DNA from: Acuticoccus sp. MNP-M23
GTDB taxonomy: Bacteria > Pseudomonadota > Alphaproteobacteria > Rhizobiales > Amorphaceae
Direction of reading: 5' to 3'
Assembly (NCBI RefSeq): GCF_031195445.1
Contig: NZ_CP133480.1
Location: 3,216,501 to 3,280,500, forward strand
Length of the DNA stretch: 64,000 nucleotides
Below, piece after piece: positions 3,332 to 21,829 of this stretch. Made by a program: the position numbers and the translations under genes. Numbering within the stretch: the stretch's first letter is position 1; the number at the start of each line of letters is the position of its first letter. The notes below the pieces were generated by a model. That model did no database searches. It was not told the DNA's origin and worked only from the letters and a program-made list of their open reading frames with translations.

Positions 3332-4693
3332 TCAGGCGCCGAGGGGATTGTTCGCGAGCCAGTCTTCCAGAAAGCGTGTGTGTACCGTGTCCGCGATCAC
3401 GGCAGGATCGTCGGCCAGTGCGGCGTGAAGGGGGAGTGTGGTCTTGAGCCCTTCGAGCGTCATTGCCGCGATTGCCGTGCGCAGCGCTGCCAGCGCGGCA
3501 GGCCGGTCCGCACCGTGGACGATCAGCTTGCCGAGGAGACTGTCGTAGAAGGGGGGGATCGCGTAGCCCTCGTACAGCATCGTGTCGAAGCGGACATTTT
3601 CGGGCACGGTCATCGCACCGCAAACGCCGGGGAAGGGCATGAAGTTCTTCGCCGGGTCTTCGGCGTTGATACGCACCTCGATGGCATGGCCGGTCCGCGT
3701 GACATCCTCCTGGCGCAGCGAAAGCGATGCGCCGAAGGCAACGCGGATCATCTCGGCCACAAGGTCGATGCCGGTGATCGCCTCGCTGACGGGATGCTCC
3801 ACCTGAATGCGGGTGTTCATCTCCAGAAAGTAGAATTCGCGCCGCTCGTCATCGAAGAGATATTCCAGTGTGCCTGCGCCGCGGTAGTTCACGCGCTCGG
3901 CAAGCCGGACGGAGGCTGCGCAGATTTCGGCACGCTCCGCTTCGGTGAGGCATGCGGCGGGCGCTTCCTCCCACACCTTCTGGCGGCGGCGCTGGAGCGA
4001 GCATTCGCGCTCGAAGGCGTGGATGGCGCGGGTGCCGTCGCCCAGGATCTGCACCTCAACATGGCGGGCGCGCTCGACCAGCCGCTCGATGTAGACGCCG
4101 CCATCGCCGAAGGCGGCACGCGCCTCTGCCTCGGCCTGCGGGATCTGCTTTTCCAGCGCCTCGGCGTTCTCCACCACGCGGATGCCGCGGCCACCGCCGC
4201 CGGCCGCCGCCTTGATCATTAGCGGATAGCCGATTTCCGCCGCAACGGCGCGGGCGGCCTCCAGCCCTTCGAGCCGTCCCTCCGAGCCCGGCGTGATCGG
4301 CACGCCCGCAGCCTTTGCGGCGGCGCGGGCGGCCACCTTGTCGCCCATGGTGGCGATGGTCTCGGCGCGCGGGCCGACGAACACCATGCCAGCCGCCTCA
4401 ACCGCTTCGGCAAAGCGCGGGTTCTCCGCCAGAAAGCCGTAGCCCGGATGAACCGCATCGGCCCCGGCATCCCTGGCGGCAGCAACCACGCGCGCAATGT
4501 CGAGATAGGACTTGGCGGCCTGCGGCGGGCCGACATTGGCAGACGCATCGGCAAGGCGGACGGCCAGCATGTCGGTGTCCGCGTCGGAACAGGCCTGGAC
4601 GGTCCGCAGCCCGAGTGCCCTTGCAGCGCGCACGATGCGCACCGCAATCTCGCCGCGGTTGGCGACGAACAGGGTCTTGCCGGAGAGGTCCAA
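3332..4693 (-). CDS. accC: Biotin carboxylase (acetyl-CoA carboxylase AccC-type)
   Basis: This 453-residue biotin carboxylase carries out ATP-dependent carboxylation of biotin on the carrier protein encoded just upstream. Visible features are the N-terminal KTLFVANRGEIAVRIVRAARALG, the ATP-grasp glycine loop AAGGGGRGIRVV, HPGYGFLAEN, the MNTRIQVEHPVSE active-site strand and EVRINAED near the C-terminus. Length is as expected for AccC. The start is a TTG three bases after the biotin-carrier stop, with only a weak ribosome-binding site, so expression probably relies on coupling. This copy sits inside a 5-oxoprolinase cluster and is probably not the housekeeping subunit. Confidence 0.9.
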   Translation of the reverse strand: MDLSGKTLFVANRGEIAVRIVRAARALGLRTVQACSDADTDMLAVRLADASANVGPPQAAKSYLDIARVVAAARDAGADAVHPGYGFLAENPRFAEAVEAAGMVFVGPRAETIATMGDKVAARAAAKAAGVPITPGSEGRLEGLEAARAVAAEIGYPLMIKAAAGGGGRGIRVVENAEALEKQIPQAEAEARAAFGDGGVYIERLVERARHVEVQILGDGTRAIHAFERECSLQRRRQKVWEEAPAACLTEAERAEICAASVRLAERVNYRGAGTLEYLFDDERREFYFLEMNTRIQVEHPVSEAITGIDLVAEMIRVAFGASLSLRQEDVTRTGHAIEVRINAEDPAKNFMPFPGVCGAMTVPENVRFDTMLYEGYAIPPFYDSLLGKLIVHGADRPAALAALRTAIAAMTLEGLKTTLPLHAALADDPAVIADTVHTRFLEDWLANNPLGA

Positions 4694-8999: not shown

Positions 9000-9986
9000 T
9001 CAAAGGAGCTGGCGCATCGGGTCTTCGATCCGCTCGGCAAAGCCGGCGATGAAATCGAGCGCGGTGACTTCGCCCATGCGGTCGGGGTCGGCATCGAGGC
9101 GGATGGTGAGAGCGTTGCCGGCTCTCGTCAGCGTCAGTGTGGGGATGCCGGTGGCGCTTGCCGGTGCCTTCGTCACGCGCGTTGCGGTGAGGTTGCGCAG
9201 GATGAAAGCCGGCGCGGTGCCGTCTGCCGAGGAGCGCGCAAAGTCCGGATCGGTGAGCGTTTGCACCTTCGGCCCCTCGCGCAGCTCCACCGTGACGGGC
9301 GCTGCGGAGATCGACTGGCGGAGCGCGCCGGCGGCAAAGGCGGCGAGTGTGCGGCTCATGTCTGCGCCAAGGTCTGCCACCAGCGCATCAAGCTGCGCGG
9401 GATCGGCCGCCGCCTCCACGACAATTCCCGCCACGGTGGCCGGATATTGTTGCGCTGACGGCGCAGCATTTGCGGGGAGTGCGGCAAGGGTTTCGAGGTC
9501 GGCTGCATGGTAGGGCTGCGGATGGCCGGCGGCGACGAGGCGCGCCAGATCTAGGCCGCGCTCGGCTGCCAGCCGCCGCGCCCTGGGCGACGCGAGAATG
9601 CGACCGTCCTTCGGGCATGCCGACGGTTTGGCCGGGCCCGCCGGTGCCGGGTCGGACGGGCGGCTGTCCGCAACAGGCGCAGCGCCATTTGCAGGTTTGG
9701 CCTCCGGTTTCGCTTCGGCCATTGCCAGGGCCACCGGATTCTCTGGCGGCTCGGCGGAGAGGATTGCAACCGTCCGGCCGACCGGCACGTCCTCGCCAAC
9801 GGCGGCGTAGGTGGCGCCGAGCCAGCCGTCGCGGTCTGCCTCCACCTCCATTGCGGCCTTGTCGGTTTCCACCTCGAAAAGGACCTCACCGGCGGCAACG
9901 GCATCGCCCGGCGCCTTGCACCAGGCAAGCAGCTTGCCGGTGTCCTGCGCCATGCCCAGCGCCGGCATGATCACGTCATGCGGCAT
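9000..9986 (-). CDS. Lipoyl-domain E2-like protein with degenerate C-terminal domain
   Basis: This 328-residue protein has an N-terminal lipoyl domain (residues ~1-78; lysine in FEVETDKAAMEVEAD), a Pro/Ala linker, a peripheral-subunit-binding domain (ILASPRARRLAAERGLDLARLVAAG, ~125-150) and a ~150-residue C-terminal domain. The C-terminal part ends like an E2 (DFIAGFAERIEDPMRQLL) but has no DHRxxDG: the corresponding stretch reads RLDADPDRMGEV, without the catalytic His. It therefore probably presents the lipoyl arm and docks E1, while acyl transfer is done by the protein at 6613-7527. It overlaps the E1 beta gene by 11 bases. Confidence 0.82.
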   Translation of the reverse strand: MPHDVIMPALGMAQDTGKLLAWCKAPGDAVAAGEVLFEVETDKAAMEVEADRDGWLGATYAAVGEDVPVGRTVAILSAEPPENPVALAMAEAKPEAKPANGAAPVADSRPSDPAPAGPAKPSACPKDGRILASPRARRLAAERGLDLARLVAAGHPQPYHAADLETLAALPANAAPSAQQYPATVAGIVVEAAADPAQLDALVADLGADMSRTLAAFAAGALRQSISAAPVTVELREGPKVQTLTDPDFARSSADGTAPAFILRNLTATRVTKAPASATGIPTLTLTRAGNALTIRLDADPDRMGEVTALDFIAGFAERIEDPMRQLL

Positions 9987-10974
9987 GGAGAAGCTCCCCG
10001 CGGCAGATTTTTCGCGCGCCCTCTGCGACCGCTTCGGGCGTCGGCACCGTCAGGTCCTCGAGCGCGGGCGAAAACGGGATCGGCACATCCATGGCGCCGA
10101 AGCGGAGCACCGGCGCGTCGAGGTGGTAGAACGCCTTTTCGGTGATGCGCGCGGCAATTTCGGCGGTGACGCCGAAGGCGCGGTGGCCCTCGTCGACCAC
10201 GATGGCGCGGGAGGTCTTCTTCGCGCTGTCGATGATGGTCGCCTCGTCGAGCGGGACGATGGTTCTGGGGTCGATCACTTCGGCCGAAATGCCGTCCTTT
10301 TCGAGGAGCGACGCCGCCTTCAGGCACACCTGAACCATCGACGACGTGCCGATGAGCGTCACGTCGCGCCCCTGCCTGAGGATGTTCGCCTGGCCGAAGG
10401 GGATGAGATATTCCTCCTCCGGCACCGGCGCCTTGTCCTGGTACATCAGCTTGTCCTCGAAGATCACGACGGGGTTGTCGTCCCGGATCGCGGTCTTGAG
10501 GAGGCCCTTCGCTTCATAGGCGGAGGAGGGGAGCGCCACCTTCAGCCCCGGAATGTGCGCCACCAGCGCGTGGAGCGACTGCGAGTGCTGGGCGGCCGAC
10601 CGGCGGGTGGCGCCAAGGTTGGTTCTGAGGACGAGCGGCACCGTCAGCTTGCCGCCGGACATGTAGTGGGTTTTGGCCGCCTGATTGCAGAGCTGATCCA
10701 TGACGAGATAGAGAAAGTCGCCGAACATCAGGTCCACCAGCGGGCGCGAGCCGGTCATTGCGGCGCCCACGGCCATCCCCATGAAGCCGGGCTCGGCAAT
10801 CGGCGTGTCGATGATCCGCTCCTTGCCGAACTCGTCGACAAGGCCCGCCAGCACCTTGAACGGCGTGCCGGCCTCCGCAACATCCTCGCCGATGACGAAG
10901 ACGGTCGGATCGCGCCGCATCTCCTCGCGGATCGCCTCGTTGACGGCCTGGCTCAGCGTGATTTCGCGGGTCAT
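9976..10974 (-). CDS. 2-oxoacid/acetoin dehydrogenase E1 component, beta subunit
   Basis: This 332-residue transketolase-type E1 beta subunit has family blocks FVIGEDVAEAGTPFKV, IIDTPIAEPGFMGMAVGAAMTG, LRTNLGATRRSAAQHSQSLHA, SSAYEAKGLLKTAIRDDNPVV and VIDPRTIVPLDEATI. It pairs with the E1 alpha subunit, overlapping it by four bases, to form the thiamine-diphosphate decarboxylase. The pattern is closest to acetoin/pyruvate-type E1 beta. The true substrate (acetoin, pyruvate, branched-chain or other 2-oxoacid) is not determined by the sequence. Confidence 0.9.
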   Translation of the reverse strand: MTREITLSQAVNEAIREEMRRDPTVFVIGEDVAEAGTPFKVLAGLVDEFGKERIIDTPIAEPGFMGMAVGAAMTGSRPLVDLMFGDFLYLVMDQLCNQAAKTHYMSGGKLTVPLVLRTNLGATRRSAAQHSQSLHALVAHIPGLKVALPSSAYEAKGLLKTAIRDDNPVVIFEDKLMYQDKAPVPEEEYLIPFGQANILRQGRDVTLIGTSSMVQVCLKAASLLEKDGISAEVIDPRTIVPLDEATIIDSAKKTSRAIVVDEGHRAFGVTAEIAARITEKAFYHLDAPVLRFGAMDVPIPFSPALEDLTVPTPEAVAEGARKICRGELLHAA

Positions 10975-12011
10975 CGGATGGCTCCGTCAAGGTAGGGCAG
11001 GGCATGGGCGACGCCTGCGAAGACGTGCGCGTCCACTTCCGACACATCCGGGTAGGCCGCGTTCAGTGCGTATTCGACGGCAGCTTCCGCGTCGGCCTTG
11101 ATCTCGTCATTGAGGGAGACCAGTTCATCGGCGCCGACGATGCCTTCGCGCTCCAGCCACTTGCCGAAATTGGTGATGGGATCGCGGACCTTTTTCCACT
11201 CCGCCTCCTCGTCCTTGGCGCGGTAGTAGTCGCGGTTGATGTCGCCCACGTGGTGGCCGTGATAGCGGTAGGTCTTCAGCTCGATGAAGAAGGGGCCTTC
11301 GCCCTTGCGTGCCCTTGCCACCAGCTCGCGCGTGAGCTCGTTGACGGCCAGCACGTCCTGCCCGTCGACGGTGTGGCTTTCGATGCCGAACGCTTCGGCG
11401 CGGGCGGTGATGGAGCCTGCCGCAATCTCGTCGGTGCGGGTATATTCGGAGTAGCCGTTGTTCTCGCAGGCGTAGATGACGGGGAGCTGCCAGAGGGCGG
11501 CCATGTTCATGACCTCGTACCAGAGGCCCTGGGCGGTCGCCCCGTCGCCGAAGAAGCAGACGGTGACGTGGCCGGTCTTCTGCATCTTGTGGGTGAGCGC
11601 AGCGCCCGTCGCGATCCCCATCGAGCCGCCGACGATGGCGTTGGCGCCAAGGTTGCCGTTGGACTGGTCGGCAATGTGCATCGACCCGCCCTTGCCCCGG
11701 CAATAGCCTTCCGCCTTGCCCAGAAGCTCGCAGAACATCTCTCGGAATTCGGCGCCCTTGGCGACGCAGTGGCCGTGCCCGCGGTGGGTGGAGGTGATGT
11801 TGTCCTCGGGCGTCAGCGCCTCGCAGATGCCGACCGCGACGGCCTCCTGGCCGGAATACATGTGCGTGAGGCCGGGCATCTTGGCGGAGAGGTAGAGCTG
11901 GTTGGCGCAGTCCTCGAAGGCGCGGATGCGGACCATCTGGCGGTACATGGTGAGATAGTCCTCGGCGTTGTGAGCCGGGTCGGCGGATGCGCTCGCGTCA
12001 ATATCGGTCAT
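10971..12011 (-). CDS. 2-oxoacid/acetoin dehydrogenase E1 component, alpha subunit
   Basis: This 346-residue E1 alpha subunit has the thiamine-diphosphate motif FFGDGATAQGLWYEVMN ending at ENNGYSEYT, and the GHGHCVAKGAEFREMFCELL and GKGGSMHIAD blocks are typical of AcoA-like acetoin dehydrogenase alpha subunits. The start at MTDIDAS has GGGAGG six bases upstream; a longer reading has no such support. It is the first gene of a six-gene minus-strand operon (E1 alpha, E1 beta, lipoyl E2, aldehyde dehydrogenase, E2 catalytic, SDR). No E3 gene is present, so the complex presumably shares a housekeeping E3. Confidence 0.9.
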   Translation of the reverse strand: MTDIDASASADPAHNAEDYLTMYRQMVRIRAFEDCANQLYLSAKMPGLTHMYSGQEAVAVGICEALTPEDNITSTHRGHGHCVAKGAEFREMFCELLGKAEGYCRGKGGSMHIADQSNGNLGANAIVGGSMGIATGAALTHKMQKTGHVTVCFFGDGATAQGLWYEVMNMAALWQLPVIYACENNGYSEYTRTDEIAAGSITARAEAFGIESHTVDGQDVLAVNELTRELVARARKGEGPFFIELKTYRYHGHHVGDINRDYYRAKDEEAEWKKVRDPITNFGKWLEREGIVGADELVSLNDEIKADAEAAVEYALNAAYPDVSEVDAHVFAGVAHALPYLDGAIR

Positions 12012-12065
12012 GGTTTCCCTCCCGGGGACGGACGGCGCGCTGCGCCGGCATTGTTTTTCTAGAAG

Positions 12066-12088
12066 GTGAGGGGCGTTCCTCCCCTCAC
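12066..12088. repeat. Hairpin upstream of the E1 alpha operon
   Basis: GTGAGGGG and CCCCTCAC form a perfect 8-bp stem around a 7-base loop. There is no T-run on either strand, so it is not a standard intrinsic terminator. It lies in the 252-base gap between the M24 gene and the E1 alpha gene, next to two more imperfect hairpins. Confidence 0.5.
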
Positions 12089-12113
12089 GCACCCCTCCCG
12101 TTCGCCACGTGGC

Positions 12114-12176
12114 AGGGGTTCAGGGGGCTTCCGGTGCTCACGCTTCGCGCTGCGCTCCGGGTCCTCCTGATCCCCT
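12114..12176. repeat. Imperfect inverted repeat, intergenic
   Basis: Arms at 12114-12127 and 12163-12176 pair at 12 of 14 positions around a GC-rich centre. It is the middle of three stacked hairpins in this gap, an arrangement like bacterial intergenic palindromic elements. No second copy was noticed elsewhere in the window. Confidence 0.4.
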
Positions 12177-12188
12177 ATGCGAGGCTTG

Positions 12189-12251
12189 GTCGGGATCGGG
12201 CCGCTTCAAGGGACGCTTCGCTCTTCGCCCTTGACCCGGCCCAATCCCGAC
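12189..12251. repeat. Long imperfect intergenic hairpin
   Basis: GTCGGGATCGGGCC at 12189-12202 pairs with GGCCCAATCCCGAC at 12238-12251 (13 of 14), and inside it CAAGGG (12207-12212) pairs with CCCTTG (12228-12233). It lies just past the stop of the minus-strand M24 gene. It could stabilise or end that transcript, or be a dispersed palindromic element. Confidence 0.5.
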
Positions 12252-12263
12252 GGCCGTGCCGGG

Positions 12264-13571
12264 TCAGTAGCGGTTGGCGATGGGAAGATCCTGCGCGGGG
12301 AAGAGGCTGATGACCTCGCAGCCGGTGTCGGTGACGACGACCTCCTCCTCGATGCGGGCGGCCGAGTAGCCGTCACTGGCGGGGCAGTAGGTTTCGAGCG
12401 CGAACACCATGCCGGTCTGGATCTCCATGGGGTTTTCCAGGCTGACGGCGCGGGAGATGATCGGGCGCTCGTGCAGCGCAAGGCCGAGGCCGTGGCCGAA
12501 CTGCAGGCCGAAGGCGGAGAGTTCGTCGGGAAAGCCGAATTCTTCTGCGGCGGGCCAGAGCTTGGCCACCTGGTCGGTGGTGACGCCGGGCTTGATGGCG
12601 GCGATGGAGGCGTCGATCCACTCGCGCGCCTTGACGTAGGCGTCGTTCTGGGACGGCGTCGACATGCCGATGTTGAAGGTGCGGTAGTAGCAGGTGCGGT
12701 AGCCCTGGTAGGCCTGCAGGATATCGAAGAAGGCCTGGTCGCCGGGGCGGAAATAACGGTCGGTGAAATTGTGCGGGTGCGGGTTGCAGCGTTCGCCGGA
12801 GATGGCGTTGATCGCCTCCACGTCGTCCGAGCCCATCTCGTAAAGCATTTTGTTGCTGAGGGCGACGATGTCGTTCTCGCGGACGCCGGGTTTCAGCTCC
12901 TCGTAGATCATGTGGTAGACGCCATCGACCATGGAGGCGGCCTGGGTGAGAAGCTGGATTTCGTCCCAGTTCTTGATCTCGCGCGCGGACAGCATGATCT
13001 GCTGGCCGTCGACGACGTTGATGCCGGCCTCCTTGAGGGCGTGGAACATCGCCGTCTCGGCATAGTCGACGCCGACGGGCATGCCCTTCATGCCGGCGTC
13101 TTCGATGAGGCCGGCGATTTCTTCGGCATAGCGCTTCATCAGGCCGAACGACGGGGGAATGGTGCCGCGCATGCCGACGACGCCGGCGCGGCAGTGGTCC
13201 GGCACCAGCCAGTCGGAGAATTTCTTGTGGTGGACGGCGGCGGAGCCGAAATCCCACACGTAAGGGGCCTCGTCGCCGGTCAGGAGGCAGAAGCGGCACA
13301 TCTTGTCCCGCTCCCACTCGCCGATCTTGGTGCCGGAGACGTAGCGGATGTTGTTGACGTCGAACAGAAGAAGCGTTGCGCAGTCGGAGGCTTTCAGCGC
13401 GTCAACCGTGCGGGCGAGGCGGTAGCGGCGCAGGCGGTCGTGGTCGACGCGGCGCTCGAAATCCACCGAGGTGTGGCCCCAGGCGGGGAGGCGGCCTTCC
13501 CAGCGCCAGCCGGGTTCGCGGTCGACGGGCGTCAGGATGTTGGGCGTGAGGGCGGGGTTGTGAAGGTTCAT
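12264..13571 (-). CDS. M24 (aminopeptidase P/creatinase) family protein with altered metal site
   Basis: This 435-residue pita-bread-fold protein has a creatinase-type N-terminal domain (FDVNNIRYVSGTKIGEWERD) and a C-terminal M24 domain. Comparison with the canonical M24 protein at 49146-50363 shows the ligands Asp283 (FFDI), His360 (FGHGLGLALHE), Glu393 (FALETYC) and Glu408 (ARIEEE). The second metal Asp of the SDMTR motif is Cys294 here (YRTCYYRTF). It may therefore be a single-metal or non-peptidase member such as creatinase or DddP-type lyases. It is the first of a run of minus-strand genes followed by an SDR. Substrate unknown. Confidence 0.8.
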   Translation of the reverse strand: MNLHNPALTPNILTPVDREPGWRWEGRLPAWGHTSVDFERRVDHDRLRRYRLARTVDALKASDCATLLLFDVNNIRYVSGTKIGEWERDKMCRFCLLTGDEAPYVWDFGSAAVHHKKFSDWLVPDHCRAGVVGMRGTIPPSFGLMKRYAEEIAGLIEDAGMKGMPVGVDYAETAMFHALKEAGINVVDGQQIMLSAREIKNWDEIQLLTQAASMVDGVYHMIYEELKPGVRENDIVALSNKMLYEMGSDDVEAINAISGERCNPHPHNFTDRYFRPGDQAFFDILQAYQGYRTCYYRTFNIGMSTPSQNDAYVKAREWIDASIAAIKPGVTTDQVAKLWPAAEEFGFPDELSAFGLQFGHGLGLALHERPIISRAVSLENPMEIQTGMVFALETYCPASDGYSAARIEEEVVVTDTGCEVISLFPAQDLPIANRY

Positions 13572-13612
13572 GGCGGGTTCCTTGGGCTTTTATATTTGGG
13601 TGGGTGCGCCGG

Positions 13613-14425
13613 TTACTGGATGCACCAGCCGCCATCGATGTGAATCATCTGTCCGGTCATGTAGTCGCTGTCCGGGCTTGCGAGATAGGCTGCGGTTCCA
13701 ACGATGTCGTTGGGGTAGGACACGCGCTTGATCTGGAGGGCATCGCGGACGATGTCGTCGTAGGCCTGCCCCTCGCGCTCCTTGAAGCCGATGTCGACGA
13801 GGTCCTTGTCGAGTTGTTCCCACAGCGGTGTGACGACCACGCCCGGCGCATAGCCGTTGACGGTGATCCCGTGTTCGGCCAGCGCGATGGCCCCGCAGTG
13901 GGTGAGCGCCAGGCAGCCATACTTGGACGTGCAGTAGACGGTGACGTCGACCAGTGGCTTGCGCGATGCGATGGAGCCCACGTTGATGAGCTTGTAGGGA
14001 TAATCGCGCTTGCCCTGTGCGATCATCTGCCTGGCAGTCTCCTGCATGCCCAGCCACATCGCCTTGGTGTTCACGTTCATGATGAGGTCCCAGTTGTCCT
14101 CGTCGATGTCCATGAAGAAGCGCGGCTTGTTGAGGCCGGCATTGAAGACGGCGACGTTGATTTCCCCGAACGCCTCCACGGTGGCAGCGACGGCGGCGGC
14201 GTTGTCCTCGCGCTTCGTCACGTCCATCCGCACCGCGACCGCCTTGCCGTTGCCGCGCTCGTTGATGCGCTCGGCCACGCCTTGGGCTTCCTCGAGGTTG
14301 AGGTCGCCGAGGGTGACGTTGGCGCCCTGCTCGGCAAAATTTTCGGCGTTGGCGGAGCCCATCCCGCGGGCTGCGCCGGTGATGAGGATGTTCTTGCCCT
14401 TAAGGCGTGTGGGGTTGATGTCCAT
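13613..14425 (-). CDS. Short-chain dehydrogenase/reductase (polyol/sugar type)
   Basis: This 270-residue classical SDR has cofactor motif TGAARGMGSANAENFA, VFNAG in place of NNAG, catalytic Ser in VGSIASRKPL and YCTSKYG (YxxxK), and a YMTGQMIHIDGG C-terminus. It resembles meso-butanediol, sorbitol or glucose dehydrogenases. A related SDR lies at 17468-18265 on the other side of the regulator, sharing NKPRFFMDIDEDNW versus NKPMRFMDVDESNW and the same LWEQLDKDL/MWEEVDRDL region, so the two look like duplicates. It probably oxidises a polyol or sugar brought in by the adjacent ABC importer. Confidence 0.87.
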   Translation of the reverse strand: MDINPTRLKGKNILITGAARGMGSANAENFAEQGANVTLGDLNLEEAQGVAERINERGNGKAVAVRMDVTKREDNAAAVAATVEAFGEINVAVFNAGLNKPRFFMDIDEDNWDLIMNVNTKAMWLGMQETARQMIAQGKRDYPYKLINVGSIASRKPLVDVTVYCTSKYGCLALTHCGAIALAEHGITVNGYAPGVVVTPLWEQLDKDLVDIGFKEREGQAYDDIVRDALQIKRVSYPNDIVGTAAYLASPDSDYMTGQMIHIDGGWCIQ

Positions 14426-14437
14426 TGTTGTTCTCTC

Positions 14438-16213
14438 TCAGGGACTGGTGGCGAGGGTCGTTTCCGTCCGTTCCTGGATGCGCGCCAGCGCGTCCGGGGC
14501 TGTGATGAGGCCGCGCAGCATGTCGTGGATGCCTTCGCCGCAGATGCGGATGATTTCGCTGATCTGCGGGATCGGAGGGCGCGGCCAGAACTGGAGCTCG
14601 TCGCGCCAGCTCATCCCTTCGATGGCTTCGAAGATGGGCGACAGGCGCCGCACCTCGGGATCGGCGCTGACCGAGTAGCGCGGCACGGTGCGCGAGCCGT
14701 TGAGGACGTAAAGCTTCTGCGCTTCGGGCGAGGTGAAGGTGACGAGGGCGTCGGCGACTGCTTCGCGGCGTTCCGGCGCAAGGTTCGTCGGTATCCCCAG
14801 AACGTAGCCGCCCACGGGGGCGACGTTGGTGCGGCCGGGCTTTGCGGGGTGGGGGAGGTAGCCGGTCTTGCCGTGCGCGGGCGAGTCCGGATCAAGGTCG
14901 AAATAGGGGGCGACGAGGGTGTAGCCGAACGCCATCGGCACCTTGCCGGTGCCGTAGGGGCGCACGCGCTCGTACCAGCTCATCGACAGGATTTCCGGCG
15001 GCGAATAACGCAGGAGCTCAAGCATGTACTCTGCTGCTTCCAGCGCTTCGGGCGCATCGAAGCCGCCGTGGTAGGAGCCGCCTTCCAGGTGCGTGGCGTT
15101 GAAGCCGCCGGCGATCTTCGGCAGGTCGATCACGGTGGCGCCGAAGTCTGCGCAGATCATCATGAACTGGTGGCCGAGCGCGGTGCCGCGTGCACCGTTC
15201 CAGGCAATGCCGTAGCGGCCCTGGTCGGGCTTGTGGAAATGGCGGGCGGCGGCGAGCAGCTCGTCGGTGGTCTGCGGTGGGGCAAAACCTGCTTCTGCGA
15301 ACAGGTCGCGCCGGTAGAACAACACTTCCGGGGTGGTCTGCACCGGAACGCCGTAAGGGCGGTCGCCCCAGTGGCTCGCCTGCCAGCCGGCGGTGTGGAA
15401 GTCCGGCGGGTCGAGCTTTGCGGTCTCGACGAAATCGTCCAGCGGGGCAAGAACGCCGCGCTCGGCGAACTCGCCGATCCAGGGAAGGTCCACCGCGATG
15501 ATGTCGTAGCGGCTTTGCCGGCGCTCTGCGTTGCGAAGGGCCTCTTCGCGCAGCCTGTCGATGGAGAAGGCGCGCTGGTGGATCTCCGTGCCGATGATCT
15601 GCTGAAACTGGCGCTTGAGGTTGCCCATGACCATGAAGGTCGGGTCGCCGTGGACGAGGATGCGCAGGCCGCCGGCAAGCTGCAGCGGCTCTGCGATCGC
15701 GGGGACCGGCCCGATGGTGCGGGTCGCGTTGTAGCTGGCGCCGAAAAAATAGTCGTCGTACCGGTCGGTCACCAGGCGGGCGGCCAGCCGCGGCACGCGG
15801 GAGGCGAGCTGGTCCCAGCGGTCGATCAGCGTTTCGGACGGGTGAAGGGTGAAGCTCTTGCCGGACTTCGTTTTCGCGCGCTGGTCGATCAGCCCGCTTT
15901 CGACAAGCTCGGCAAGACGGCGTGTGGCCGTTGCATAGGGAACGCCGGAGGCCGCGATGGCCGAGGATGGTGTGACCTGCCGGCCTTCCAGATGGCTGAG
16001 CATCAGGTGGGACAGGATTTTAAGGCGTGGATTGGGCTGTTCGAGCTCCAGAAGTGCATCGAGCTCGACACCGAGATCGCCGAGGAACGTCATGACCTGC
16101 CGCACGCGTGCCTGCCCGATAACGCCCTGGGCCGGCGTATCGTCGCGGGGGAGAAGGTCTCCGGTCGGCATTTCTTTTGAAAGATCCAATTTGGATTTCT
16201 TGGGGGTGCGCAT
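14438..16213 (-). CDS. Winged-helix / solute-binding-protein fusion, putative cytoplasmic sugar-sensing regulator
   Basis: This 591-residue protein joins a DNA-binding domain to a periplasmic-binding-protein fold. Residues ~62-125 form a MarR/IclR-like winged helix (TPSSAIAASGVPYATATRRLAELVESGLIDQ, cut here as helix-turn-helix 83-100 and wing 111-124). Residues ~183-590 look like a family 1 extracellular solute-binding protein (DIIAVDLPWIGEFAERG, then YGVPVQTTPEVLFYRRDLF). No signal peptide or membrane segment is present, so the binding domain is cytoplasmic. The start MRTPKKSK is chosen on composition; an ATG 15 codons upstream is possible. It is divergent from a ribose-type ABC importer and flanked by two SDR genes; the promoter region carries matching 13-bp palindromes. 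Confidence 0.8.
   Translation of the reverse strand: MRTPKKSKLDLSKEMPTGDLLPRDDTPAQGVIGQARVRQVMTFLGDLGVELDALLELEQPNPRLKILSHLMLSHLEGRQVTPSSAIAASGVPYATATRRLAELVESGLIDQRAKTKSGKSFTLHPSETLIDRWDQLASRVPRLAARLVTDRYDDYFFGASYNATRTIGPVPAIAEPLQLAGGLRILVHGDPTFMVMGNLKRQFQQIIGTEIHQRAFSIDRLREEALRNAERRQSRYDIIAVDLPWIGEFAERGVLAPLDDFVETAKLDPPDFHTAGWQASHWGDRPYGVPVQTTPEVLFYRRDLFAEAGFAPPQTTDELLAAARHFHKPDQGRYGIAWNGARGTALGHQFMMICADFGATVIDLPKIAGGFNATHLEGGSYHGGFDAPEALEAAEYMLELLRYSPPEILSMSWYERVRPYGTGKVPMAFGYTLVAPYFDLDPDSPAHGKTGYLPHPAKPGRTNVAPVGGYVLGIPTNLAPERREAVADALVTFTSPEAQKLYVLNGSRTVPRYSVSADPEVRRLSPIFEAIEGMSWRDELQFWPRPPIPQISEIIRICGEGIHDMLRGLITAPDALARIQERTETTLATSP
16184..16196. promoter_or_regulatory. 13-bp palindrome, site 1 (candidate operator)
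   Basis: ATCCAATTTGGAT has 6-bp arms around one base. It lies within the first codons of the fusion regulator gene. It matches site 3 at 11 of 13 positions, which suggests autoregulation by the adjacent regulator. Confidence 0.5.
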
Positions 16214-16265
16214 TGCTGTCCGTCCGAACGTGTTGGAAGTCGAACTCCGGTGATACATTCAAAAT

Positions 16266-16278
16266 ATTCAAAACGAAT
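16266..16278. promoter_or_regulatory. 13-bp palindrome, site 2 (candidate operator)
   Basis: ATTCAAAACGAAT is a weaker relative of sites 1 and 3: it differs from site 3 at three positions, two of them symmetric changes. Its start is exactly 21 bases from the start of site 3, i.e. two helical turns, so dimers at both sites would lie on one face of the DNA. Confidence 0.4.
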
Positions 16279-16286
16279 ACACAGGC

Positions 16287-16299
16287 ATCCAAAATGGAT
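16287..16299. promoter_or_regulatory. 13-bp palindrome, site 3 (candidate operator)
   Basis: ATCCAAAATGGAT has 5-bp arms around AAA. It lies in the 208-base divergent promoter between the fusion regulator and the ABC importer, about 120 bases before the binding-protein start codon. A TTGGAC just downstream (16303-16308) could be a -35 element for the importer, but no convincing -10 was found. Confidence 0.5.
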
Positions 16300-16421
16300 A
16301 AATTGGACGCACGCTCGTGGCGGCAAACACGGCAAGTTGGCCGCCATCGCTCCAGCGCCGCGAACACAGACGTCGCGGGCTGGTGAGACTTGATTGCGAA
16401 CACACTTGGGGAGGACGATTA

Positions 16422-17384
16422 ATGAAGAAGACCGCACTTACGCTGGCCGCCACCACGGCACTGGTAACCTTTGCCGGCGCTGCTCTGGCACAGGACAAGG
16501 CATTCACCATCGGCATCACGCAGAACAATGTCGGCGTGGACAGCTACCAGACCACGTATGAGCAGGCGTTCATCGAAGCGGCGGGCGCCAACGACAAGGT
16601 CGACACGGTCGTTCTGGATGCCGGCGGCGACGTGGCCCGCCAGATCGCCCAGATCGAAGACCTCATCCAGCAGGACGTGGATGCCATCATCATCTGGCCG
16701 ACCAATGGCGAGGCGGTCATCCCCGCTGTGCGCAAGGCCAAGCAGGCCGGCATCCCCGTGGTGGTCACCAATTCCAACATCGCCGAGCCGGGCTTCGACT
16801 TCGTGGCGTCCTTCTCCGGCCCCGACAACATCACGCAAGGCCGCTACGCTGCCGAAATCATGTGCGACAAGTTCAAGGCCGAAGGCACCGAGAACGAGGC
16901 GCAGATTGTCCAGGTTTCGGGTCAGCCGGGCTACACCACCGCCATCGAGCGGGCGAAGGGCTTTGAGGACCGCCTGCCGGAAGTGTGCCCCAACGTGACC
17001 CTGATGGAGACCCAGCCGGGCGACTGGAACCGCGAAAAGTCGCAGCAGGTGATGGAAGCCTTCCTCATCAAGTACGACGACATCGACGGTGTTTATGCCG
17101 GCGATGACAACATGGGCGTTGGCGCGCTGAACGCCGCCAAGGCTGCCGGCCGTGCCGGTGACATCGTGTTCGTGGGCGCCACCAACTTCGCCGTTGGCTA
17201 CGACGCGATGAGCGCGGGCGACTACTGGGGCTCGATCTACCAGTCGCCGGTGGACGATGCGAAGGCCGCACTCCAGACTGCGCTCGACGTGCTGGACGGC
17301 AAGGACGTGCCGTTCCTCAACTATTTCGACACGCCGAAGATCACCCAGGACAACATGAAGGACTACACCAAGCCGGTGTTCTGA
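16422..17384 (+). CDS. Ribose-type ABC importer, periplasmic sugar-binding protein
   Basis: This 320-residue Peripla_BP_4-family protein has a clear signal peptide (MKKTALTLAATTALVTFAGAALA, cleavage before QDKAF). The fold pattern includes TIGITQNNVGVDSYQTTYEQ near the N-terminus, QDVDAIIIWPTNGEAVIPAV, NSNIAEPGFDF and GVYAGDDNMGVGAL. GGGAGG precedes the ATG by eight bases. It is the first gene of a plus-strand operon with an SDR, two RbsC-type permeases and a double ATPase. The family takes up pentoses, hexoses, polyols or autoinducer-type sugars; the exact ligand is unknown. A hairpin follows the gene. Confidence 0.9.
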   Translation: MKKTALTLAATTALVTFAGAALAQDKAFTIGITQNNVGVDSYQTTYEQAFIEAAGANDKVDTVVLDAGGDVARQIAQIEDLIQQDVDAIIIWPTNGEAVIPAVRKAKQAGIPVVVTNSNIAEPGFDFVASFSGPDNITQGRYAAEIMCDKFKAEGTENEAQIVQVSGQPGYTTAIERAKGFEDRLPEVCPNVTLMETQPGDWNREKSQQVMEAFLIKYDDIDGVYAGDDNMGVGALNAAKAAGRAGDIVFVGATNFAVGYDAMSAGDYWGSIYQSPVDDAKAALQTALDVLDGKDVPFLNYFDTPKITQDNMKDYTKPVF

Positions 17385-17411
17385 GCCGGCTTTTTGACCC
17401 TTCGAGACCGG

Positions 17412-17433
17412 GAGGGGCGCCGAGGTGCCCCTC
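17412..17433 (+). promoter_or_regulatory. Hairpin after the sugar-binding protein gene
   Basis: GAGGGGC and GCCCCTC form a 7-bp stem around an 8-base loop, followed by CTCCAAAAG. It sits between the binding-protein gene and the SDR gene. Such hairpins often stabilise the binding-protein message or partly terminate, giving more binding protein than permease. No strong T-run is present. Confidence 0.4.
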
Positions 17434-17467
17434 TCCAAAAGACTATATAAAACAGTGGGAGGGCGCT

Positions 17468-18265
17468 ATGGGCAGGGTCACGGACCGTGTCTGTCTCGTG
17501 ACGGGCGCCGCACGCGGCATCGGTCGCGCCATCGGTGAGGCGTTGCTGGCTGAGGGCGCAAGCGTCTGCTTTGCCGACCTCGACGGCGACAAGGCGGCCA
17601 GGGTCGCCGACGCTGCCAGTGCAAAGGCAGACGGACGGGGCGGCAACGCCATGGGCATTGCCGTTGACGTGCGCGAACGCGACCAGGTGCGCGAGATGAT
17701 TGCCCGCACCGTGGAGCGGTTCGGCCGGCTGGACGTGAAGTTCAACAACGCCGGCGTCAACAAGCCCATGCGCTTCATGGACGTTGACGAGTCCAACTGG
17801 AATTTCATCATGGGCGTCAACGGCCTCGGCTGCCTCATCGGCATTCAGGAGGCGGCCCGCCAGATGATTGCCCAAGGCGGGGGCGGCAAGATCGTCAACA
17901 CCGCCTCGGTCGCGAGCCGCCAGGGCTTCGACAACGTCGCGCCCTACTGCGCGTCCAAGTGGGCGGTAGTCTCGCTCACCCAGTCTGCCGCGCGCGATCT
18001 TGCGCGCCACAACATCACCGTCACCGGTTTTGCGCCGGGCGTCGTCGCCACGGAGATGTGGGAAGAGGTCGACCGCGACCTGATGGAGATCGGCGCTGCC
18101 GAAAGGCCGGGCCAGGCGATGGAAGAGTTTTCAGCCAACATCTTGCGCGGACGCGTTGCGGTTCCCGGTGACATCACCGGCACCACCACGTTCCTCGCCT
18201 CCAGGGACAGCGATTACATGACGGGCCAGATCGTGATGATCGACGGGGGGATGACACTCGTATGA
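17468..18265 (+). CDS. Short-chain dehydrogenase/reductase inside the sugar ABC operon
   Basis: This 265-residue SDR has TGAARGIGRAIGEA (cofactor), FNNAGVNKPMRF, catalytic Ser in NTASVASRQG and YCASKWAV (YxxxK), and YMTGQIVMIDGG at the C-terminus. GGGAGGG lies four bases before the ATG. It overlaps the permease start by four bases (ATGA), so it is firmly part of the importer transcript, and probably acts on the imported sugar or polyol. It is similar along its length to the SDR at 13613-14425. Confidence 0.88.
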   Translation: MGRVTDRVCLVTGAARGIGRAIGEALLAEGASVCFADLDGDKAARVADAASAKADGRGGNAMGIAVDVRERDQVREMIARTVERFGRLDVKFNNAGVNKPMRFMDVDESNWNFIMGVNGLGCLIGIQEAARQMIAQGGGGKIVNTASVASRQGFDNVAPYCASKWAVVSLTQSAARDLARHNITVTGFAPGVVATEMWEEVDRDLMEIGAAERPGQAMEEFSANILRGRVAVPGDITGTTTFLASRDSDYMTGQIVMIDGGMTLV

Positions 18266-19305
18266 CGGATCATGCCGCCGACAACACCGCAAACCCCAAT
18301 CCACCAAATCAGCGCCCCGCCGCGCCCGCACAGGAGGCGGGACCGGGGCGCAACTGGGGCCAGATCCTGGCCTCACAGGGCATCCTCATTGCCTTTGCCG
18401 TCTTCATGATCGGCTTTACCATCGTCTCGCCCCGCTTCCTCAGCCCGGACAATGTCATGGGCGTGGTGCGGTCCTCGGCAATTCTCGGCGTGATGGCGCT
18501 GGGCGTCACCTTCGTGGTGATTTCCGGCAACCTCGATCTTTCGGTCGGCTCCATGATGAGCTTTTCCACCATTGTGGTGCTCGACCTTCACGACCGGCTG
18601 GGGCCGCTTCTGGCGATCCCCGGCATGTTCGTCATGACGCTGGCGCTGGGGGCCATCAACGGCTTCCTGATCGGCTATCTCAAGCTGAACTCGCTGATTG
18701 TGACCCTCGGCATGCTATCGGCGATTCACGGGCTGACGCTCACCTATTCGGGCGGCAAGAACATGGACATTGCCGACAAGGACGGCACCTGGTTCGCCTT
18801 CTTCGGCCAGGGCGACATTCTCGGCCTGCCGATGCCGATCATCATCTTTGCAGCCCTTGCCGTGCTCCTGACAATTCTCCTCGCCAGAACGCCCTTTGGC
18901 CGCAAGGTCTACGCGGTTGGCGGCAACGGTACGGCGGCAACCTTCTCTGGCGTTCGCCGGGCCCGCACGGTGTTCTTCTGCTACCTCATTTCGGCAGGGT
19001 GCGTGGGCGTTGCCGGCATCCTCCAGGCGTCCCGCTCGCTGGGCTCCCAGAATACTGTGGGGCAGGGGCTGGAACTTGAAGTTCTCGCCGCCGTCATCCT
19101 CGGCGGCGCATCCTTGCTCGGCGGCTCGGGCACCATCTTCAAGACCGTCATCGGCGTTCTCATTCTGGGCTTCATCCAGAACGGACTGCTCATTGCCGGG
19201 CTCCAGTTCTACGCCCAGTACGTGGTTACCTGGATCATCATCATCCTGGCGGTGTGGCTGGACGTGGCGGCCAAGCGCGGCCGGCTCCTGTCACCGATCG
19301 CTTGA
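18262..19305 (+). CDS. Ribose-type ABC importer permease 1 (RbsC-like)
   Basis: This 347-residue membrane protein is of the RbsC/AraH family with about ten hydrophobic segments. Family marks are VVISGNLDLSVGSMMS, NGFLIGYLKLNSLIVTLGM, RTPFGRKVYAVGGN and AAVILGGASLLGGSGTI. The N-terminal ~35 residues are a Pro/Ala-rich cytoplasmic extension. It starts inside the stop of the SDR gene. A second RbsC-like permease follows, so the channel is probably a heterodimer. Confidence 0.9.
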   Translation: MTDHAADNTANPNPPNQRPAAPAQEAGPGRNWGQILASQGILIAFAVFMIGFTIVSPRFLSPDNVMGVVRSSAILGVMALGVTFVVISGNLDLSVGSMMSFSTIVVLDLHDRLGPLLAIPGMFVMTLALGAINGFLIGYLKLNSLIVTLGMLSAIHGLTLTYSGGKNMDIADKDGTWFAFFGQGDILGLPMPIIIFAALAVLLTILLARTPFGRKVYAVGGNGTAATFSGVRRARTVFFCYLISAGCVGVAGILQASRSLGSQNTVGQGLELEVLAAVILGGASLLGGSGTIFKTVIGVLILGFIQNGLLIAGLQFYAQYVVTWIIIILAVWLDVAAKRGRLLSPIA

Positions 19306-19316
19306 GGAGGCAACCC

Positions 19317-20321
19317 ATGCAACCCGGCAGCCTGTCCACCTTTCTGAAGCGCGGCGCGATCTGGGCGTTCATCCTGATCGAGCTGGCCTTCTTCTCCATC
19401 GTCGGTGATGCGATCTCCGTCACCGACAGCGCCTTCCTGCAGCCCGACAACATGCTGCTTCTCATCAAGCAATCGGCCCCCATCGGCATCATCGCGCTGG
19501 GCATGACCGTCGTCATGATCAACGGCAACATCGACCTTTCGGTCGGCGCCATCTTCGCGCTGGCGGCCATCGTGCTTCTCACCGTTCTGGGTCTTCCCTC
19601 GGTGCAGGCGCTGGGCGATGTCGGCGCCATCATCGTCGCGTGGGCCGCCGCGCTCGGCACCGGTCTTCTGCTTGGCGCGGTCAACGGGCTGATCGTCTGG
19701 AAGACGGGCGTCGACGCGTTCATCGTCACGCTGGGGTCCATGCTCGGCTTCCGCGGCCTCGTGTTCATGATTAACGGCGAGCAACCCACCTCGGAGCTGA
19801 ACTGGACGCTGATCGACTTTTCCGAGGCCCATTTCCTCGGCCTGTCCACGCCCACATGGTTCCTCGTCGGCGCCACGCTGGTCCTGTGGTTCATGATGCG
19901 CTTCACCGTCCACGGCCGGAACGCTTACGCCATCGGCGACAACCGCGAGGCGGCCGTCAATGCCGGCATCCGCGTCGGTCCGCACATGATGATCAACTTC
20001 ATGCTGATCGGCCTTCTGGCTGCGCTGTCGGCGGTGGTGTTCTACTCCGAAAGCGGCTCGGTGAACCCCAACGACGGGACCCTTTACGAGCTTTGGGCCA
20101 TCACCGCGGTCGTCCTCGGCGGCACCAAGCTCACCGGCGGCTCGGGGTCGATCATCTCGACGCTGGGCGGGGTCATCGCCATCCAGCTCCTGCGCAAGGG
20201 GCTCGGCCACATCGGCGCCGACACCGAGACCGTGAACCTCGTCATCGGCATCATTCTCATCGCGGTCCTCTTCCTCGACCGCCAGCTCGACGTGAAGGGC
20301 AAGGAGGCGCTCAGGGTATGA
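19317..20321 (+). CDS. Ribose-type ABC importer permease 2 (RbsC-like)
   Basis: This 334-residue RbsC-family permease has GMTVVMINGNIDLSVGAIFA, NGLIVWKTGVDAFIVTLGS, YAIGDNREAAVNAGIRV and AITAVVLGGTKLTGGSGSI. The ATG at MQPGSLST has GAGGAGG six bases upstream. It overlaps the ATPase start (ATGA). It is diverged from permease 1, especially in the outer loops (INGEQPTSELNW), consistent with a heterodimeric channel. Confidence 0.9.
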   Translation: MQPGSLSTFLKRGAIWAFILIELAFFSIVGDAISVTDSAFLQPDNMLLLIKQSAPIGIIALGMTVVMINGNIDLSVGAIFALAAIVLLTVLGLPSVQALGDVGAIIVAWAAALGTGLLLGAVNGLIVWKTGVDAFIVTLGSMLGFRGLVFMINGEQPTSELNWTLIDFSEAHFLGLSTPTWFLVGATLVLWFMMRFTVHGRNAYAIGDNREAAVNAGIRVGPHMMINFMLIGLLAALSAVVFYSESGSVNPNDGTLYELWAITAVVLGGTKLTGGSGSIISTLGGVIAIQLLRKGLGHIGADTETVNLVIGIILIAVLFLDRQLDVKGKEALRV

Positions 20322-21829
20322 CCGATTTGAAACCGGCTCTTCGGCTGGAGGGCATCACCAAGACTTTCCCCGGCGTGCGTGCGCTCGACGATGTGTCCTT
20401 CTCCGTCCTGCCTGGCGAAGTCCATGCGCTGATGGGGGAGAACGGCGCCGGCAAGTCCACGCTGATGAAGTGTCTTGGCGGGGTGTACCAGCCCAACGGC
20501 GGGAAGATCATCGTGGATGATGCCGAGGTGCGGATGGCGACGCCCCTGGCGGCCAAGGCCAAGGGTATCATCTTCATCCACCAAGAGCTTTCGCTGGCGA
20601 CCGAGCTTTCGGTGGCGGAAAATATCTACCTTGGCGAACTGCCGCGCAAATCGTTCGGCCGGGTGGACTTCAAGCAGCTGTTCGACGCCACCGACGCCAT
20701 CCTCTCTAAATTGAATGTCAGCTTCGACGCGCGAACCCGCGTCGGCACGCTCTCCATCGCCAACCAGCAGATGGTCGAGATCGCTCGTGCGCTGACCCAC
20801 CACGCCAAGGCGGTCATCTTCGACGAGCCCACCGCATCGCTCACCGACGCTGAAAAGGTCGTGCTGTTCGACGTGATTGCCGATCTCAAGGCATCGGGTG
20901 TCGGGATCATCTACATCTCCCACCGGATGGAGGAGATCTTCAAGATCACCGATCGGATCACGGTCCTGCGCGACGGGCAGTTCCGCGGCACGCTCACCAC
21001 CGCCGAGACTGACGAGAACGAGGTCACGCAGCTGATGATCGGTCGCGCGCTGGACCTTTCGCGCAGCGTGTCCGACCATGCTCTCGGCGATGTGGCGCTG
21101 GAGGTGAAGGGGCTGTCCTGCGGCAAGCTTTTCTCCGACGTATCGTTTTCGGTGCGCCGGGGCGAGGTGGTCGGGTTTTACGGCCTTGTCGGCGCGGGGC
21201 GGACCGAGATTGCGGAGACGCTGTTCGGCCTTCGCGAACCGACCGCAGGTTCCATCTGGCTGGACGGGGTGGAGACGCGCATGGCCTCGCCGGTCGACGC
21301 CATCGCCAATGGCATCAGCCTCGTCCCGGAGGACCGGAAGGGGCAGGGGCTGGTGCTCGGCATGAACGGGCGCGACAACATCACCCTGCCGCAGGTGGAT
21401 GGGATGACCGCCGGCCCGTTCGTGTCCCACGGCGACGAGATCGAGATTTTCGACCGCTACAAGACCCTCCTCGACATCCGCACGCCGGGCTGGCGCCAGC
21501 AGGCAAAGAATCTGTCCGGCGGCAACCAGCAGAAGATCGTCATCGGTAAGTGGCTCGCCATGAAGCCGAAGGTGCTGATTGTCGACGAGCCGACCCGCGG
21601 CATCGACGTCGGCTCGAAGTCGGAGATCCACAACATCATCCGCAAGCTGGCGGCGGAGGGATACGCAGTGATCGTCATCTCCTCCGAGATGCCGGAGGTG
21701 CTGCACGTATCGGACCGGATCATCGCGATGTACCACGGCCGGATCAGCCGCACCTTCGAAACCGACGAGGTGACGGAGGACAACCTGATCCAGGCCATCT
21801 CCGGGATAGACGACGCGCACGCCGCCTGA
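20318..21829 (+). CDS. Ribose-type ABC importer, double ATP-binding protein (RbsA-like)
   Basis: This 503-residue protein has two ABC domains. Domain 1 has Walker A GENGAGKSTLMKCL, a signature-like LSIANQQMVEIARAL and Walker B AVIFDEPTASLTD. Domain 2 has the degenerate Walker A YGLVGAGRTEIAETL usual for RbsA-type proteins, signature NLSGGNQQKIVIGKWL and Walker B VLIVDEPTRGIDVGSK. It energises the two permeases upstream and ends the operon, 11 bases before a convergent gene. Confidence 0.93.
   Translation: MTDLKPALRLEGITKTFPGVRALDDVSFSVLPGEVHALMGENGAGKSTLMKCLGGVYQPNGGKIIVDDAEVRMATPLAAKAKGIIFIHQELSLATELSVAENIYLGELPRKSFGRVDFKQLFDATDAILSKLNVSFDARTRVGTLSIANQQMVEIARALTHHAKAVIFDEPTASLTDAEKVVLFDVIADLKASGVGIIYISHRMEEIFKITDRITVLRDGQFRGTLTTAETDENEVTQLMIGRALDLSRSVSDHALGDVALEVKGLSCGKLFSDVSFSVRRGEVVGFYGLVGAGRTEIAETLFGLREPTAGSIWLDGVETRMASPVDAIANGISLVPEDRKGQGLVLGMNGRDNITLPQVDGMTAGPFVSHGDEIEIFDRYKTLLDIRTPGWRQQAKNLSGGNQQKIVIGKWLAMKPKVLIVDEPTRGIDVGSKSEIHNIIRKLAAEGYAVIVISSEMPEVLHVSDRIIAMYHGRISRTFETDEVTEDNLIQAISGIDDAHAA

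Follow-up and report, generated by a model that had tools for sequence, protein, structure and literature searches.

One-component regulators with a PBP-like sensor include LacI, the LysR-type proteins, GntR/AraR and the AraC-type Btr, which differ in PBP class and in DNA-binding head; proteins that combine GntR and SBP_bac_1 may exist in other phyla. MarR proteins are usually ~140-150 residues long and bind their ligand in the DNA-binding/dimer domain. The nearest design to the regulator described here is SgrR of E. coli, which matches SgrR_N (E 2e-43) and SBP_bac_5 in Pfam. According to excerpts of a preprint, SgrR represses itself (cited in PMC13060122) and its Vibrio cholerae homologue DsvR (Vca0578) is predicted to carry an N-terminal HTH and a C-terminal SBP_bac5 domain (PMC13060122). 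The sequence-only reading of the present locus had assumed that regulators of this kind borrow only smaller PBP domains, an assumption that fails because SgrR has a full family-5 domain (PMC13060122, excerpts). Since a winged helix fused to a complete solute-binding domain is already known from SgrR, the class of design is a described one, and what survives of the proposed 'undescribed class' is a cytoplasmic one-component regulator whose family and family-1 sensor look undescribed. Among the titles and abstract openings listed from open-licence papers, none describes a family of MarR + SBP_bac_1 proteins. The sensor fold, the family and the operator look new, while the design was known from SgrR.

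The regulator lies in a window of 64,000 nucleotides from Acuticoccus sp. MNP-M23, which is the whole stretch of DNA that was analysed (Table 1). Its translation gives a stop-free open reading frame of 591 residues. Starting at another in-frame ATG, at 16258, the protein would have 606 residues, but the start at 16213 is preferred because position 16258 coincides with a conserved GATAC-like element and the ATG there has no ribosome site in front of it. Like SgrR (551 residues), the protein has an N-terminal winged helix, a C-terminal complete solute-binding domain, a similar length and no importer role. Unlike SgrR, it is built from MarR_2-like and SBP_bac_1 parts, and neither SgrR_N (E<=1) nor SBP_bac_5 was found in it by Pfam. 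Direct comparison of the two proteins gives a BLASTP E value of 0.15, and a profile comparison aligns 48 winged-helix columns only (probability 8.9%, E 0.0037). The SgrR locus has no high-scoring site for the operator described below (best score 6.7), and SgrR controls the SgrS small RNA, whereas no such gene was seen at the regulator locus. Sequence similarity between the two proteins is too low to be usable. From its domain order and missing export signal, the regulator is predicted to work like SgrR, as a cytoplasmic winged helix with a complete solute-binding protein (SBP) as sensor, without being a member of the SgrR family.

Table 1. Features of the regulator locus, in window positions
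Feature	Position	Strand	Basis and occurrence
Putative lipoyl-domain (E2-like) protein	9000..9986	-	56/80 loci
E1-beta-like subunit	9976..10974	-	domain scan; 58/80 loci
E1-alpha-like 2-oxoacid/acetoin dehydrogenase subunit	10971..12011	-	named from Phaeobacter synteny; 58/80 loci
M24 metallopeptidase-fold protein (creatinase/DddP-like)	12264..13571	-	domain scan; 72/80 loci
Short-chain dehydrogenase SDR1, directly downstream of regulator	13613..14425	-	domain scan; 79/80 loci
Regulator of 591 residues, with MarR-type winged helix and family-1 solute-binding domain	14438..16213	-	
Family-1 solute-binding (sensor) domain, residues 181-588	14450..15673	-	Pfam, AlphaFold2, Foldseek, PDB sequence matches
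Winged-helix domain, residues 62-125	15839..16030	-	AlphaFold2, sub-threshold MarR_2, MarR-family Foldseek matches
Predicted recognition helix, residues 93-105	15899..15937	-	AlphaFold2 model and alignment
Probable intragenic operator O3, within regulator codons 6-10	16184..16196	.	
Probable operator O2, ATTCAAAACGAAT, centred at a distance of 21 bp from O1	16266..16278	.	
Probable operator O1, ATCCAAAATGGAT	16287..16299	.	
Importer solute-binding protein, Peripla_BP_4 (ribose type), secreted	16422..17384	+	Pfam; divergent in 79/80 loci
Short-chain dehydrogenase SDR2	17468..18265	+	domain scan; 67/80 loci
Importer permease 1, BPD_transp_2	18262..19305	+	domain scan; 78/80 loci
Putative importer permease 2, start uncertain	19317..20321	+	78/80 loci
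Importer ATPase, two ABC_tran domains	20318..21829	+	domain scan; 77/80 loci

The sensor half of the protein is readily recognized. SBP_bac_1 matches residues 236-500 (E 2.1e-30, 107.2 bits against a cut-off of 26) and SBP_bac_8 matches as well (E 1.5e-20); the closest PDB sequences are 1eu8, a trehalose/maltose-binding protein (E 1.8e-27), and 5iai (E 2.4e-27). The head is matched by MarR_2 at residues 69-112 below threshold (E 0.0016; 19 bits, where the cut-off is 27). Among the 69 orthologues scanned, SBP_bac_1 was found in all and MarR_2, at E<=0.1, in 59. An AlphaFold2 model from 69 sequences (mean pLDDT 76.8) places a winged helix at residues 62-125 (helices 62-75, 82-88 and 93-105, strands 109-113 and 121-125), followed by a long helix at 127-150, a badly modelled linker at ~141-160 and the SBP fold from ~181. 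Foldseek superposes the sensor domain on 5iai with a TM score of 0.91 and on 1eu8 with 0.87, both by target length, and also matches MalE3. Residues 39-178 modelled separately (pLDDT 81) have the MarR regulator 3e6m as top PDB match, and MarR-family proteins form the majority among the 50 matches listed, at whole-chain TM scores of only ~0.4-0.5. IclR models match 5 of 12 diverse family members. Of the earlier description of the head as 'MarR/IclR-like', the first half is preferred to the second, MarR being the leading fold match. The regulator resembles MarR-family proteins such as 3e6m in its predicted winged helix, a palindromic predicted site and divergent target genes, and differs from them in its added 400-residue SBP domain.

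With the secreted family-1 proteins 5iai (Arad_9887), 1eu8 and MalE3 (6dtq) the regulator has the whole fold in common (TM 0.87-0.91 by target length); unlike these exported importer parts, it has a DNA-binding head and no export signal. The maximum hydropathy over 15 residues at the N terminus is 1.21 in the regulator and does not exceed 1.5 in the 69 family rows aligned with it; the same measure gives 1.58-1.89 in four secreted SBPs. By hydropathy, the regulator has no signal peptide. In two orthologues (L013 and L077) a value of 2.4 is reached in in-frame codons that precede the aligned part, and these codons are probably non-coding. In the same genome, eight other tblastn matches to the regulator cover the SBP part only and, judged by eye, start like ordinary secreted binding proteins. 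Pfam, AlphaFold2, Foldseek and hydropathy accordingly agree with the original proposal of a winged helix joined to a complete family-1 fold without a signal peptide.

The fusion is conserved together with its surroundings. A scan of genome contigs gave 240 candidate stretches and 227 coding relatives, and the best 80 of the 227 were kept as orthologues (59-67% identical to the regulator). No stop interrupts either domain in any of the 80. A ribose-type binding-protein gene is present in 79 of the 80 loci and is divergent from the regulator in all 79, the exception (L030) being a contig end. The divergent importer with a binding protein of ribose fold, noticed at the outset, is thus borne out by the Peripla_BP_4 match and, with the missing signal peptide, is conserved across the family; the importer beside the regulator is not of the same family as its sensor, which belongs with the family-1 extracellular SBPs (PF01547). 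Automatic annotation names 26 of the 34 full-length relatives in plasmid records (E<=1e-30) 'extracellular solute-binding protein', as it would if the regulator were a misannotated secreted protein with an odd N terminus, or an artefact fusing two genes. Such an explanation is scarcely credible given 80 uninterrupted orthologues out of 80, which rule out a frameshift or assembly fusion, together with the missing export signal, a winged helix predicted twice and the matched operators.

Neighbouring genes were counted by tblastn with the window genes over the 80 loci, several of which are cut by contig ends (Table 1). The SDRs resemble acetoin/diol dehydrogenases. The M24-fold protein, 82-93% identical to its orthologues, has DddP (DMSP lyase) as nearest curated model at 112.8 bits against a cut-off of 600, and is perhaps a non-peptidase hydrolase or lyase of some pathway; its gene is missing from one locus (L066) that is full-length. 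As clues to a substrate, the E2-like, SDR and M24 genes named none and the literature was uninformative. A Phaeobacter gallaeciensis plasmid typed as conjugative (L113) carries the entire importer-regulator-SDR-M24-dehydrogenase cluster (window 9000-21829), with extra genes for ThuA, a succinate-semialdehyde-type dehydrogenase, E2 and lpdA; on a plasmid of conjugative type, the cluster looks like a catabolic module that is mobile.

When 22 sensor domains are placed in a tree with 10 ordinary family-1 proteins, the sensors group in one clade (100/99). In two loci (L111 and L120) a family-1 SBP is encoded beside the regulator, and both of these neighbours fall outside the sensor clade. A sensor copied from the neighbouring transporter is therefore not supported, in line with what the sequence-only reading had supposed. 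That a single fusion gave rise to the family is held with moderate confidence, since the outgroup is small and its branches are long.

Conservation within the protein bears on what the SBP domain does. Three residues of the predicted recognition helix (P92, A94 and R98) are invariant in 69 rows, R98 also in 12 diverse rows, and the invariant residues of the orthologue alignment lie mostly in the sensor domain. Mean identity over 10-residue blocks reaches 0.90-0.97 at ~211-220, 411-420, 431-440 and 535-547, and is 0.40-0.54 at residues 31-60. The domain might instead be a structural or protein-interaction module that answers, for example, to the importer ATPase, as MalT responds to MalK. The contacts of secreted SBPs need not all matter in the cytoplasm, and an aspartate of the trehalose/maltose-binding protein TMBP (1eu8), which we take to be a trehalose contact, aligns with a non-acidic residue of the regulator. 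However, the regions that face a family-1 pocket, for example residues 186-193, 211-220, 411-420, 429-438 and 535-547, rank with the best-conserved parts of the protein. The pocket regions are conserved more strongly than the DNA-binding half, as expected under ligand selection, and relatives retain the SBP domain while their gene neighbours change; we regard a module of this kind as improbable and a small-molecule sensor as the better reading.

The intergenic stretch between regulator and importer contains palindromes around TCCAnnnTGGA, with the consensus ATCCAwwwTGGAT, which we consider probable operators. They fall in the stretch (16180-16300) that had been singled out at the start for measuring DNA binding. 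Sites were counted in 80 intergenic sequences, those of 79 loci and that of the window, allowing no more than one mismatch over the eight fixed bases. They number 2.36 per sequence, compared with 0.177 in 1600 segments of matching length drawn at random from the same loci; 63 of the 80 sequences and 2.75% of the random segments have at least two sites, and three sequences have none. A matrix of 21 columns with the core T-Y-C-R-n-W-n-Y-G-R-A, built from these 80 sequences, finds a pair of sites at exactly 21 bp (20 and 22 being also allowed) in all 80, a count that is partly circular because the matrix was trained on the same sequences. For this reason the weight is carried by the fixed spacing and by the tests on codons and relatives given below, rather than by the bare count. 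Further matrix sites lie at +53 to +56 (42 counts), +103 to +107 (41) and +156 to +160 (19); the site at +55, present in about half of the family, was not detected in the window. O1, O2 and O3 are the only three matches to the looser consensus in the 64 kb, where 1.46 are expected and 20 of 100 shuffles reach three, so that only the clustering of the three sites is telling. Exact matches to the stricter pattern WTCCAWWWTGGAW number four in the 5.16-Mb genome, two of them O1 and O3. The others, at C1:686331-686343 and C1:1036760-1036772 (L123 and L124), are possibly extra targets, or chance.

Besides O1 and O2, two elements are conserved in the aligned promoters, a GATAC-like one towards the regulator (+36 to +41 from O1) and TGccg towards the importer (-41 to -37); a search for a sigma-70-like promoter detected none. 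If the two elements are read as -10 elements, O1 and O2 would lie over the promoter of the regulator, as for autorepression, and upstream of that of the importer, as for activation. The regulator could instead simply repress both divergent operons. Most proteins of the MarR family are repressors, and the sites do cover the presumed regulator promoter. With the conserved elements as -10, however, O1 and O2 would precede the importer start by ~50 and 70 bp, a usual place for activators, and SgrR, the nearest design, is by annotation a dual regulator and represses itself (PMC13060122, excerpts). Plain repression is thus quite possible without being the reading we favour, which is that the regulator probably represses its own gene and may activate the importer side.

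Part of the operator array lies inside the regulator gene. The sites at ~+105 fall in the first codons in one reading frame in 42 sequences, where they encode peptides such as KSKLD, PSNLN and SSRMD-like ones, and those at ~+158 fall in another frame in 19 sequences (for instance IQSGQ); an intragenic site is found in 60 of the 80 sequences, one of which (L037) has both. In synonymous-codon shuffles, which covered 69 of the 80 sequences (11 too short, window included), a site scoring at least 12 is expected in 4.1 and found in at most 10, and it is observed in 52 of the 69; in the control, downstream coding stretches of the same genes, sites of this type occur in 0 of 69. This excess indicates that the DNA motif is selected there beyond the requirements of the peptide. 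An excess of TCC serine codons at the intragenic site was set aside in favour of these shuffles, because that argument is circular where the sites had been picked by the matrix. The N-terminal stretch coded by the intragenic operator region has a pLDDT below 50 in the AlphaFold2 model.

Full-length fusions occur in 6 of 398 genomes of a phylum sample, 8 of 385 of a class sample and 5 of 10 of the family, all sampled from the Proteobacteria. In three genomes of 1.4 Mb, which belong to one family, the fusion is present at about 31-35% identity, and in the one examined (L132/L159) the regulator diverges from a gene for a binding protein whose start is signal-like. Twelve distant loci, one of them unannotated (L115), were read for gene neighbours. 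A Skermanella relative has the same importer and SDR; an Agrobacterium relative has two importers and Gfo/Idh/MocA oxidoreductases; several rhizobia have an intradiol dioxygenase, maleylacetate reductase, 2,3-butanediol dehydrogenase, YciI and Gfo/Idh/MocA; and a Paraburkholderia relative has an inositol-dehydrogenase-like gene. Five rhizobial loci (L112, L116, L118, L120 and L122) combine the intradiol dioxygenase and Gfo/Idh/MocA, mostly also with maleylacetate reductase and 2,3-butanediol dehydrogenase. This set is possibly a cyclitol-to-hydroxyquinol route, on which a literature search gave nothing useful.

The operator recurs in these relatives. The matrix from the close orthologues was applied to 18 loci (12-20 kb) of relatives 25-53% identical to the regulator, and for 16 of the 18 the highest-scoring match anywhere in the locus falls within a cluster promoter, with a chance level of 0.39 by area, although some intervals were drawn after the sites had been seen and that of L159 takes in 60 bases of the regulator frame. 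Palindromic column-shuffled matrices on the same loci give a mean of 1.8 and a maximum of 13, and none of 300 reaches 16. In one of the two remaining loci (L119) the best match lies elsewhere, and the promoter sites score 13.5 and are tied; in the other (L161) it lies inside a permease gene, and two promoters have lesser sites. On short flanks, 4 of 10 further relatives (L135, L155, L156 and L158) had no promoter site, and in longer DNA of the same four (L160, L163, L162 and L164, respectively) all have one. In these four loci the regulator stands behind importer genes and the site is at the promoter upstream of those genes, which argues that the site does not reflect mere proximity to the regulator and marks regulated promoters. 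In the AT-rich 1.4-Mb genome (L159), TATTCAwwTTGAATA-like sites are found at 4409, 7934 and 12726, at three promoters of one catabolic cluster that includes Gfo/Idh, TIM-barrel and SDR genes and two importers.

Our analysis makes it highly probable that the regulator is a cytoplasmic one-component transcription factor that couples import and catabolism to a solute through ATCCAwwwTGGAT palindromes. Computation supports the domains, the lack of an export signal, the conservation of orthologues and operon, and an operator that is conserved and returns at cluster promoters of distant relatives, whereas the dimer, the ligand, the allostery and the sign of regulation are inferences. In the proposed mechanism, the MarR-type winged helices, probably dimerized through helices 30-55 and 127-150, would read the palindromes of the divergent promoter. 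Two dimers would sit on O1 and O2, exactly two helical turns apart and on the same face of the helix, and auxiliary sites further downstream, often in the regulator's own first codons, would add to the array. The family-1 domain, on its poorly ordered linker, would close around a cytoplasmic solute and thereby alter the occupancy of the DNA. The likeliest solute is the imported substrate itself or the product of its first oxidation, and a polyol or cyclitol-like compound is suggested by the likeness of the SDRs to acetoin/diol dehydrogenases and by the Gfo/Idh/MocA and inositol-type genes of the relatives.

For the family as a whole we lean towards a joint reading in which one ancient fusion of a MarR-type winged helix and a family-1 domain founded a proteobacterial family of cytoplasmic sensors with one DNA code, TYCRnwnYGRA. 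Its sensors and targets would since have diversified, into importer/SDR, Gfo/Idh, intradiol-dioxygenase and inositol-like clusters and into 1.4-Mb genomes, and in the close orthologues the operator array would extend into the first codons, so that part of the N-terminal peptide is dictated by the DNA rather than by what the protein does. If the reading as a regulator is right, proteins annotated as secreted sugar-binding proteins (among the full-length relatives on plasmids, 26 of 34) would turn out to be transcription factors whose operator can be predicted, and their regulons would be legible from sequence. The solutes of uncharacterised catabolic clusters in marine and rhizobial bacteria would be traceable through one soluble sensor. 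The family would also provide a natural soluble switch on the maltose-binding-protein fold, of use in studying how a periplasmic flytrap becomes a cytoplasmic one.
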